Positions 32 through 3,693 of a stretch of 64,000 bases of DNA are shown piece after piece. The position numbers were made by a program, and so were the translations under genes. Positions within the stretch are counted from its first letter, which is position 1, and each line of letters begins with the position of its first letter. The notes under the pieces are model-generated. The model worked only from the letters and a program-made list of their open reading frames with translations. It made no database searches and was not told where the DNA came from. Source of the DNA: Ohtaekwangia koreensis (lineage in GTDB: Bacteria; Bacteroidota; Bacteroidia; Cytophagales; Cyclobacteriaceae); contig NZ_FUZU01000002.1 of assembly GCF_900167975.1 (NCBI RefSeq), forward strand, positions 999,501-1,063,500, written 5' to 3'.

Positions 32-1363
<1,332 letters not shown>

Positions 1364-1472
1364 TTATTAAGTTTAGAGAGGATGACTAAAAATTATTTCT
1401 AAAAAGGATTTTGCTATAAGAGCAGACGTAGTCGTAATCATACCTGTCACGTGGCAGATCGTAAGACTAGTG

Positions 1473-1538
1473 TGTTGCTGAAAGCGGTGTGCTAGAGATT
1501 GGCAGCAACAGCACGGTAACAACAACATGCGTTGTTAC
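1473..1538 (-). promoter_or_regulatory. Two perfect hairpins over and after the Cys codons of the metY leader ORF
   Basis: Read as minus-strand RNA, hairpin A pairs 1531-1538 with 1516-1523 (8 bp, 7-nt loop). Its 3' arm contains the three consecutive Cys codons of the leader ORF. Hairpin B pairs 1503-1510 with 1473-1480 (8 bp, 22-nt loop); its 5' arm is inside the ORF and its 3' arm is beyond the stop codon at 1492. A ribosome held at the Cys codons would open hairpin A and, by its footprint, influence B. No U-tailed intrinsic terminator is evident between here and metY, so the output could be translational or Rho-linked. The structures are seen in the sequence; the regulatory role is inference. 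Confidence 0.5.
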
Positions 1539-1641
1539 ACATGCAATTGTTAATAATAATAGTTACAGCGTTGGAGAAATAAGCACGAAGGCTATTGAAG
1601 CCTGTCTTAGTGATGGTGGTAATGATGCTTTTCATTTTCAT
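1492..1641 (-). CDS. Cys-rich leader peptide upstream of metY (49 aa, putative attenuator)
   Basis: This short ORF sits between the SAM-I riboswitch and metY. It starts with ATG at 1641-1639 (M-K-M-K-S-I-I) and stops with TAG at 1494-1492. Residues 33-41 read CMCNNACCC, five cysteines in nine positions, followed by YRAVAANL; the first 30 residues contain no Cys. The start codon directly follows the 3' strand of riboswitch helix P1, so SAM binding should bury its upstream A-rich initiation region. Poly-cysteine leader peptides are known to sense cysteine upstream of sulfur genes in actinobacteria; I know of no description nested with an S-box in Bacteroidota. Ribosome stalling at the Cys codons is inferred. 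The overlapping opposite-strand frame is judged a shadow. I cannot prove translation from sequence alone. Confidence 0.65.
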   Translation of the reverse strand: MKMKSIITTITKTGFNSLRAYFSNAVTIIINNCMCNNACCCYRAVAANL

Positions 1642-1766
1642 CGGTTTATATTTCCCGACCTGGACCATCCAAGCCGGAGTCAGGATTTAGCACCTTTTCC
1701 TTATTATAGGGAGTGGTTGCTAGCGCTTCTCAGAGCCTGTCTCTCCGCGCTTCTTTATAAATCGAT
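1641..1766 (-). promoter_or_regulatory. SAM-I (S-box) riboswitch controlling the metY leader
   Basis: The hallmark core is visible on the minus strand: GGAGAGA, then GGCUC..GAAGCGCUAGCAACC, then GGUGCUAAAUCC. P1 pairs 1756-1761 with 1645-1650 (UUUAUA/UAUAAA) and extends by two G-C pairs after one mismatch. P2 is AGCGC/GCGCU, P3 is ACC/GGU enclosing UCC/GGA, and P4 is CCUGAC/GUCGGG. All four S-box helices are therefore present. S-box RNAs bind S-adenosylmethionine and switch off methionine and sulfur genes. Here the P1 3' strand abuts the start codon of the Cys-rich leader ORF, which suggests translational control of that ORF. No classic terminator hairpin with a U-tract directly follows. Confidence 0.92.
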
Positions 1767-1798: not shown

Positions 1799-1831
1799 CA
1801 AACGTAGAGTCCACAAGAGTTGTTTCCAAGT
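1799..1831 (-). promoter_or_regulatory. Bacteroidota-type promoter for the riboswitch-metY transcript
   Basis: On the minus strand the -7 element TACGTTTG (1806-1799) matches the TAnnTTTG consensus. A TTG (1829-1827) lies 20 nt upstream as the -33 element. Transcription would begin near 1790, shortly before helix P1 of the riboswitch. Confidence 0.7.
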
Positions 1832-1896: not shown

Positions 1897-3693
1897 TTAT
1901 GCGCGAAAAAAAGGCAATCGCACCGTAAATGTCGTGCCCTGATAAACTTCGCTTTTAAAAGAAACGTCACCCTGTAATCGCTCAACTGCGCGCTTCAATA
2001 TATAAAGTCCAAGGCCTGTTCCCTCAACATGGTCGTTGGCGCGAAAGAACATATTAAACACTTTGGACTGCAATTGTGGATTTATACCCATGCCGTTGTC
2101 TTCGACCACGATCGTTAAGAATTTCTCATCACGCAAAATGGATATGTGTACAACAGGCTCTTTTTCGGGCATGGAGTACTTGATAGCATTTTCAATCAGG
2201 TTTTGTAATATAGTATTGATAATTGCCCACTCCGAATAAAACTCCAGATCAGGTGCTATATCTATACTAAATTTGATTCTCTTAAAGTTGTCGAGGAATT
2301 GGTATGTATTGATACAATCGTTCAGTAATGTTTTGAAATCTATTTTCACCCGGTTTACTTCCGAATGATTCATGCGCGTTATATTGATCAGGTCGAGTAC
2401 AATGTTATCAATTCTCAGAATCTGCGATTGATACATATCTATATACTTCAGCGCCTGCGGATCTTTAATTTCATATTTCATCAGGTTGTTCAAGCCAAGC
2501 AATGATGAGATCGGTCCTTTCAGATCATGCGATACGCGATAGAAAAATGAATCAAGTTCTGCATTTTTCTTTTCAATGATCTCCGTTTTACTCCGCTGTA
2601 TTTCTGCTTCCAGCTCCAGGAATTTCACCTTCGCGATTGCCTCATAGCTTTTAACAGCATTGTAAGTATGCGCTACTACCAGCGTTTCCTTAATCACTAT
2701 ATATTGCTCAAGGAAATCAAGTGCTTCATTGACGTTACCTTCACTACGCGCCACCAAATGAAGATTATACAGTGATTTATAACGGATAAACCGAATGTTG
2801 TATTGATCAGATACTTGTTTGGCAAGCACTAAATGTTCACGTGCTTTATCATACTGCTCCAGCGCATGATATAGTACACCAAGCTTGTTGTAAGCCATGG
2901 AGATACCCAATTGATCGCCTGCCTCCAGGTGAATATTCAAGGCTCGGTTCAGATCATCAAAAGCCTGATCAAATTTTTTAAGCTTGATATATACTTTGCC
3001 ACGTCCGTAAAGTGAATAGGCAAGACCACGTATATCATTGGTTTGTGTTTTCAGTGTTATGCTCTTCTCGATCGTAGCCAGCGCCAGGTCAGTCATGCCA
3101 CGTTTCAGATATATACCTGAAAGCGGATTGTATGCATTTGATTCAAGGTTAGGATCATTCGTGAGTCTTCCTGCTGAAACACAGCTTAAGTATGAGCTGA
3201 TCGCATTTTCCTGGTCATCCAGGTATTCATAAATAGTACCGATCGATTTTAATACCCGTGCTTCATTATAGTGATCATGAAGATTGCGATATATAAAAAG
3301 ACAATCAAGCAGGTATACCAGACCAAAGTGAAAGTTGTCGGTTTTGTAATGCACACCGGCAATAGCATATTTAGCATCTGCTATACCTTTTAGATCTTGC
3401 TTATGGTTGAAAAAAGTCAAGGCTTCTTCGGCAAATGCAAGCGATCGTTGGTAATCACCGCGAATCATGGAATACAAGGCAAGTTGATTTTTTGCTAAAG
3501 CACCAAGCGCTTCATTGGCTAACTGCTCGCTCGTAGTAATTACTTGCTGCGCAAGTGCTATACTTTTTTGCAGATCGTAAGTTCTGCATGCAAAGGCTTG
3601 TACCAACAGTGCTTTTGCTTCTTCTTCAACACTATTTTTCTCCGTTTCAGTCTGCTCCATAAATAAAAATGATCCTGACGTATTGCTATACAA
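1897..3693 (-). CDS. TPR-containing sensor histidine kinase
   Basis: A 598-residue soluble kinase. Residues about 25-345 are tetratricopeptide repeats, followed by a short coiled coil (about 350-380). The dimerisation/phosphoacceptor helix carries the H-box SHDLKGP with His389. The ATPase domain has the N box NLIENAIKYS (about 499-508), G1 box VEDNGMGI and G2 box GTGLGLYILKRA. There is no signal peptide or membrane segment, so it probably senses a cytosolic signal or partner through the TPRs, a common architecture in Bacteroidota. No response regulator lies next to it, so it is an orphan here. Translation may begin at Met12 (MEQTETEK, position 3660) instead of the upstream ATG. The signal is unknown. 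Confidence 0.9.
   Translation of the reverse strand: MYSNTSGSFLFMEQTETEKNSVEEEAKALLVQAFACRTYDLQKSIALAQQVITTSEQLANEALGALAKNQLALYSMIRGDYQRSLAFAEEALTFFNHKQDLKGIADAKYAIAGVHYKTDNFHFGLVYLLDCLFIYRNLHDHYNEARVLKSIGTIYEYLDDQENAISSYLSCVSAGRLTNDPNLESNAYNPLSGIYLKRGMTDLALATIEKSITLKTQTNDIRGLAYSLYGRGKVYIKLKKFDQAFDDLNRALNIHLEAGDQLGISMAYNKLGVLYHALEQYDKAREHLVLAKQVSDQYNIRFIRYKSLYNLHLVARSEGNVNEALDFLEQYIVIKETLVVAHTYNAVKSYEAIAKVKFLELEAEIQRSKTEIIEKKNAELDSFFYRVSHDLKGPISSLLGLNNLMKYEIKDPQALKYIDMYQSQILRIDNIVLDLINITRMNHSEVNRVKIDFKTLLNDCINTYQFLDNFKRIKFSIDIAPDLEFYSEWAIINTILQNLIENAIKYSMPEKEPVVHISILRDEKFLTIVVEDNGMGINPQLQSKVFNMFFRANDHVEGTGLGLYILKRAVERLQGDVSFKSEVYQGTTFTVRLPFFRA

Follow-up and report, generated by a model that had tools for sequence, protein, structure and literature searches.

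A Cys-rich leader peptide is nested directly behind a SAM-I riboswitch (S-box) upstream of metY in Ohtaekwangia koreensis, and this arrangement probably represents a two-stage sulfur sensor, in which a SAM-gated Cys/Met leader peptide would control metY and a further, largely sulfur-related set of genes. The nested ORF with its Cys cluster is real and occurs far above chance. Comparison of related sequences supports the parts of the unit, how they are conserved and spaced, the AU richness of P1, and the kinds of genes downstream. The window, i.e., the whole stretch of 64,000 nucleotides analyzed here, comes from contig 5 of a genome of 7.24 Mb; the features of the metY locus are given in Table 1.

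In the first stage of the proposed mechanism, the 3′ strand of P1 of the SAM-I aptamer would hold the ribosome-loading region of the leader. With SAM bound, P1 would be shut and the leader untranslated; at low SAM, P1 would open and ribosomes could load on the leader. In the second stage, the ribosome would reach the Cys/Met cluster at the leader end and stall there if Cys-tRNA (or Met-tRNA) is scarce. The stalled ribosome would prevent the RNA of the Cys codons from pairing downstream, and the gene would be ON. Whether no ribosome is present (high SAM) or the ribosome has finished the leader (high Cys), the RNA would be left in the same default OFF fold, so that the unit would in effect respond to low SAM AND low Cys/Met. 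The OFF state may consist of Rho-dependent termination or of a block of gene translation. The SAM gating, the stalling and its control of the gene, and the AND logic are what we infer from the layout of these sequences.

Table 1. Positions of the leader unit and its neighboring elements in the window
Feature	Position	Strand	Basis and remarks
Putative −33 element TTG	1827-1829	−	Assigned by eye
Promoter-like −7 element TACGTTTG (TAnnTTTG)	1799..1806	−	Consensus from the accessible part of PMC9723704
SAM-I riboswitch aptamer (S-box)	1643..1763	−	RF00162, 68.9 bits (gathering score 44.4), model positions 1-108 (full-length)
P1 5′ strand GATTTATA	1756..1763	−	RF00162 alignment
P1 3′ strand TATAAACC	1643..1650	−	RF00162 alignment; AU-rich, within the initiation region of the leader ORF
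Leader ORF MKMKSIITTITKTGFNSLRAYFSNAVTIIINNCMCNNACCCYRAVAANL	1492-1641	−	49 codons + TAG
Cys/Met codon cluster CMCNNACCC	1519..1545	−	Leader residues 33-41, five Cys; Cys and Met clusters recur in the leader family
TGCTGTTGCTGC	1502..1513	−	Out of frame in the window; able to pair with 1480-1473
Gap from leader stop to metY	1355..1491	−	137 nt
CAGCAACA	1473..1480	−	Complement of the run of Cys codons; conserved within the window's clade
Hairpin (TAGTC ... GACTA), apical GCCnnGTGAC	1429..1469	−	Conserved in the window's clade
metY, O-acetylhomoserine/O-acetylserine sulfhydrylase	32..1354	−	TIGR01326, 675.9 bits

The sequence-only reading had described a minus-strand ORF of 49 codons with five Cys in CMCNNACCC, located between an S-box and metY. 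The ORF was confirmed from the sequence, and the identities of both neighbors were borne out by the RF00162 and TIGR01326 models. Its ATG adjoins the 3′ strand of P1, as claimed, with a single base (1642) between the last P1 base and the start codon. A second in-frame ATG (codon 3, 1635-1633) is located at +7 from P1, and the spacing peak among relatives fits this ATG better than the one at +1. Because the lineage formed by the window and its relative L420 has one base fewer than the sister genomes, the Cys run of the window ends before the stop codon. In the sister genomes, the TGCTGTTGCTGC stretch provides four in-frame Cys codons (L405) or three (L415). Its retention in the window's lineage although out of frame suggests that the stretch has a role as RNA as well.

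Conservation was analyzed in metY loci collected from 98 genomes of the family (84 genera, S-box present in 96/98; 79 genomes positive for metY with 82 places, all of which were taken), 88 genomes of the order (58 positive, 28 of these 58 rows being left out), and 149 genomes of the class (22 positive at E ≤ 1e-150), plus 80 loci kept from GTDB records. A covariance model derived from 20 S-boxes detected an S-box in 183 of 205 metY loci; the 22 loci without a match were excluded, and an Rfam scan also gave no S-box in the 20 of them that were tried. Nine exact duplicates were collapsed and near relatives retained, which resulted in 174 distinct S-box/metY loci. In 126 of these 174 loci, which are related and thus not independent cases, an ORF begins between −10 and +60 nt relative to the end of the S-box and has three or more Cys among its 18 final residues, compared to 1.6% of 6960 dinucleotide shuffles. 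At least four Cys were found in 109/174 loci (shuffles 0.17%) and at least six in 63/174 (shuffles 0/6960). Short ORFs occur in any AT-rich leader, and a chance ORF beside the riboswitch might be expected on that ground; this explanation is refuted by the conservation and by the complete lack of leaders at 67 S-boxes with a canonical P1, and we give it virtually no credence.

The start of the leader is located 6–10 nt after P1 in 89 of the 126 leader loci. The Cys run, the reading frame, and the P1–ATG spacing, which the sequence-only reading had proposed to compare among relatives, are conserved there, contrary to the loss of frame and Cys run that this reading had named as its refutation; the Cys-bearing leader is not universal, as the Cys run is missing in 48 of the 174 S-box/metY loci. 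Among the Cys-poor loci without a GATAAG-type P1, 36 of 38 keep an ORF of at least 15 amino acids with a start at +6 to +10 (shuffles of these 38 loci: mean 3.0, maximum 7). Carriers of the unit include loci of Chryseolinea, Cesiribacter, Pontibacter, Marivirga, Mucilaginibacter, and Solitalea. In Algoriphagus-like metY loci (L145, L217, L218, L230, L212, L228, and similar ones), the Cys run is gone and the short ORF at +6 to +10 is kept; a few Cys-poor loci of this set show Met clusters.

Of the 22 metY loci lacking an S-box, seven (L172, L178, L180, L181, L209, L235, and L240) contain an ORF that begins with ATG, has a Cys/Met cluster, and is leader-like by eye. The screen behind these seven (three Cys in seven residues) also selects ordinary frames, and they were left out of the statistics. 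A search with the leader protein over the 98 genomes returned mostly noise and was informative only where matches adjoined S-boxes. Pattern searches for four Cys codons followed by a stop codon and for an AU-rich P1 followed by an ATG were likewise discarded, each yielding a long and mostly chance-like list. The loci L266-L295 from the former search contained one short ORF with such an ending (7 amino acids), with no S-box core upstream.

Translation start sites in Bacteroidota are known to depend on A/T-rich upstream sequence, not on Shine–Dalgarno motifs. In the 98 leader loci with starts at +5 to +15, the P1 3′ strand consists of 50% A and 41% T (91% A+T), and P1 pairing is possible at a mean of 7.5 of 8 positions. 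Upstream of the ATG, these loci have a predicted unpaired probability of 0.65 in the free RNA, which drops by half, to 0.33, when P1 is forced. The relation between P1 type and leader was further analyzed in 108 S-boxes from relatives (15 at metY by motif, 93 elsewhere; L335 and L307 were left out). S-boxes with a canonical P1 (GATAAG/GATGAG type) have a leader in 0/67 cases, 55 of which are metH; those with an AU-type P1 have one in 30/40, the two classes having been drawn after data inspection and 17 of the 30 positives belonging to the window's genus. L296 and L297 had been chosen because of a Cys run already seen nearby, a selection that favors the association, and without them the AU-type count is 28/38. 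One S-box falls outside both classes (L340, two Cys). The AU-rich P1 with its nested leader and the absence of a leader at all 56 metH S-boxes support SAM gating of leader translation.

An AU-type P1 without a leader was found in 10/40 cases, including L014, L018, L432, L434, and one metH; the four named S-boxes are perhaps under another kind of control. The genes at L018 and L434 are metX-like by eye. Sulfhydrylase-like genes (by eye) with a canonical P1 and no leader are present at L004, L008, L020, and L303. At metY loci with a canonical P1, a terminator-like hairpin follows within 200 nt after the S-box in 10/10 cases, and a poly-Cys ORF starts 172–358 nt after the S-box in 5/10. These loci are mostly Chitinophagales-like, and some such relatives may read the same two inputs in series, by an S-box terminator followed by a distant Cys leader. 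The distant poly-Cys ORFs of L208, L221, L223, L252, and L258 end in M or MP (5/5).

The existence of this serial layout would make it conceivable that the nested unit, too, consists of two independent adjoining sensors, an S-box with its own terminator and a Cys leader with its own attenuator. We consider this very improbable, given the tight spacing between P1 and the ATG in the majority of leader loci (+1 in the window, or +7 for the alternative ATG), the AU-rich P1, and the lack of space for an S-box terminator ahead of the ORF. The 100 nt preceding the S-box contain the promoter-like motif TAnnTTTG in 103/173 loci (mononucleotide shuffles: mean 11.8, maximum 20), and the leader–gene gaps contain it in 1/101 cases (shuffles: mean 4.5). 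Because the motif lies upstream of the S-box and is rare in the gaps, S-box, leader, and gene are probably located on one transcript. A 598-aa ORF, sensor-kinase-like by eye, is located directly upstream of the metY leader (window 1897-3693, minus strand).

The leaders have a median length of 40 codons (range 24–60), and the distance from their stop codon to the gene start is 64–695 nt (median 127). As is typical of amino-acid attenuators, they are short ORFs with the codons of the amino acid to be regulated clustered near the end. Cys accounts for 61–68% at each of the last six codons and for at most 2% from codon 20 on, a steep rise that is partly due to choice because Cys in the last 18 residues was the selection criterion. 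Both Cys codons are used (TGT 448, TGC 287). Met, which played no part in picking the leaders, makes up 164/1764 (9.3%) of the last 14 residues and 31/3256 (1.0%) of the body in the 126 leaders (Fisher p 8e-47, without correction for relatedness). Within the cluster of the 109 leaders with at least four Cys, it is the commonest non-Cys residue (83/336). Since the Met codon is not one base change from any Cys codon, drift of Cys codons does not explain this enrichment.

Length differences between related leaders are all multiples of three (18/18 pairs). Summed divergence is lower in the leaders (292/2262 sites) than in the downstream gap (399/1932), several of the compared pairs having been picked for similar leaders; some pairs are reversed, e.g., L061/L420 with 4/150 differences in the leader and 0/109 downstream. 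The synonymous substitution bias, which the sequence-only reading had suggested as a check, turned out to be weak: on DNA alignments, 94/84/114 differences fall on the three codon positions (p = 0.09), and selection on the peptide body is therefore not claimed. An earlier count of 201/168/283 was rejected as biased, because the pairs had been chosen and aligned as proteins. Alternatively, the product of the ORF might itself function as a Cys-rich microprotein in metal or redox binding, with SAM controlling its synthesis, which would agree with its Cys content and conservation. Given the widely varying number and spacing of Cys, the diverse bodies, the weak amino-acid selection, and the cis position between riboswitch and gene, such a function is highly unlikely; the 49-aa ORF also gave no Pfam match at E ≤ 1 and no NCBIfam match at E ≤ 0.001.

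An alignment of 17 sequences from the window's clade showed two conserved elements, a GCAACA-like segment with complementarity to the Cys run, and the hairpin following it. In the hairpin, some pairs compensate, and a few of the 17 sequences are mismatched. The pairing energy between Cys run and segment is −12.2 kcal/mol for the own and −11.7 kcal/mol for swapped combinations (p = 0.047), in a swap test made with related sequences and with a longer segment for the window. Across all loci, pairing of the Cys run with downstream RNA reaches p ≤ 0.05 in a modest 15/126. Alignment of two groups, the window's clade and a Mucilaginibacter-like one, revealed no universal structure downstream, and their hairpins differ. 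Intrinsic terminator-like sites are present in 32/126 gaps, compared to 10–20 in eight shuffles, which makes them a minority feature at most, and an intrinsic terminator after the leader was rejected as a common element of the unit. The window locus is not among these 32, and the intrinsic terminator plus antiterminator of a classical transcriptional attenuator was not found.

C exceeds G in 124 of the 126 leader gaps. Together with the lack of a general intrinsic terminator, this would also suit a leader that is only a SAM-gated permissive uORF, the translation of which shields the mRNA from Rho or permits re-initiation and the Cys/Met codons of which only tune the response; the accessible parts of two reports on mycobacterial riboswitch uORFs offer precedents (PMC11260477, PMC12810186). 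We regard a purely permissive role as unlikely. It leaves the packing of Cys at the end and the Met enrichment unexplained, the leader stop is at least 64 nt away from metY, which is far for re-initiation, and the mean C content is above G in the 48 loci without a leader as well.

The unit of S-box and nested leader is not confined to metY. The host genome contains five S-boxes, three of which are followed by a leader with at least three Cys near its end, namely those of metY, of a PhyH-family oxygenase unit, and of a secreted protein with a TonB receptor and SusD behind it. A weak case (45.4 bits, ORF ending in CCR) precedes a sulfatase, and the S-box of metH has no leader. The oxygenase and the secreted protein may serve sulfur scavenging. 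On contig 4 (809400-816000; L336, L341), S-box and Cys leader are followed by a 311-aa secreted-looking protein without a Pfam match and the TonB receptor/SusD pair; this locus is a candidate for putative sulfur-source uptake. Six further genomes of the genus were compared, with homology judged by eye. Five of them have the oxygenase unit behind a leader ending in Cys; the sixth (G328) has the leader, but the first long ORF detected there is that of the following gene. The secreted-protein unit is present in 3/6 and the sulfatase unit in 1/6 of these genomes (by eye).

Elsewhere, genes for PAPS reductase and sulfite/nitrite reductase stand behind the unit. The operon at L342 encodes an O-succinylhomoserine-sulfhydrylase-like enzyme (just below the cut-off), a NIR_SIR-family reductase (below the NCBIfam cut-offs), a tetrapyrrole methylase, and a PAPS reductase domain; similar operons follow the unit at L343, L344, and L347. 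Reductase genes (by motif) are found behind it at L428 and L429 and a PAPS reductase, above the cut-off, at L437. With metY, PAPS reductase, and the sulfite/nitrite-reductase operons, the leader stands ahead of a Cys/sulfur gene, as is the case for amino-acid attenuators. In seven loci (L066, L069, L081, L087, L106, L199, and L205), the Cys leader and metY are separated by a gene of 145–146 amino acids; the one from L066, the only one of the seven scanned, is OsmC-like (76.4 bits vs. a cut-off of 95).

A wider reading, which we hold tentatively as a real possibility, is that of an RNA regulon of the Bacteroidota. Genes for sulfur acquisition, not metH, would read SAM, Cys-tRNA, and Met-tRNA nested on one transcript and thereby form a natural AND gate. 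The SAM aptamer would decide on ribosome entry and the mixed Cys/Met cluster on stalling, and the ribosome-based sensor would sit inside the riboswitch expression platform.

Riboswitch-gated uORFs and poly-Cys attenuators are each already known. The sequence-only reading knew of no published case of the nesting, and searches of an open-access library likewise yielded no report that combines a SAM riboswitch and a Cys leader. The mycobacterial poly-Cys leaders are reportedly termed leaderless in a title by Canestrari from 2020. SAM-I riboswitches with the RBS in P1, as described in the accessible part of PMC2258182, share the RF00162 aptamer with the window's unit, but the gated start in the window is that of the leader peptide and not that of the enzyme gene. 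The poly-Cys leaders of Actinobacteria resemble the window's leader in having a Cys codon run near the stop and a position upstream of Cys genes (PMC1262725). The accessible text of that source reports no conserved terminator hairpin for the Mycobacterium leaders and describes no riboswitch, whereas the window's unit adds a riboswitch, the Met enrichment, and another phylum, the Bacteroidota.

In the Mycobacterium B12/uPPE2 (PMC11260477) and Mbox/Rv1805A (PMC12810186) systems, a riboswitch controls the translation of a short upstream ORF, as proposed for the window. An amino-acid-sensing codon run is not described in the available portions of these two reports, and ligands and phylum differ. 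The uORFC-8-2 motif of cysS in Rhodobacterales (PMC8632094) is also a candidate attenuator with a Cys-codon uORF; unlike the window's unit, it has two Cys codons, an intrinsic terminator, and, in the part of the paper at hand, no riboswitch. Two inputs on one mRNA leader, as in the window's unit, are known from metE of Bacillus clausii with its SAM-I and AdoCbl riboswitches (PMC2258182) and from the tandem attenuators of mgtCBR (PMC3641672). According to the accessible sections, these are independent platforms or two ORFs and not an aptamer gating an amino-acid-sensing ORF. Within the phylum of the window, reports on Flavobacterium psychrophilum (PMC9723704) and Bacteroides thetaiotaomicron (PMC7366714) mention possible leader-peptide attenuation before operons for amino acids, and short ORFs within long 5′ UTRs; the available text of these reports does not describe a SAM riboswitch together with a Cys leader.

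The unit is open to direct test in the carrier genera Chryseolinea, Mucilaginibacter, and Pontibacter. The distribution of genes suggests a tendency, with exceptions, for sulfur-importing genes to carry both sensors and for metH to carry the SAM sensor alone. If the proposed mechanism is true, it would extend Cys attenuation to the Bacteroidota, for which the accessible parts of the literature so far offer leader-peptide hints only (PMC9723704, PMC7366714), and the unit would be a natural nested logic device, with a ligand aptamer and a translating ribosome acting in series.
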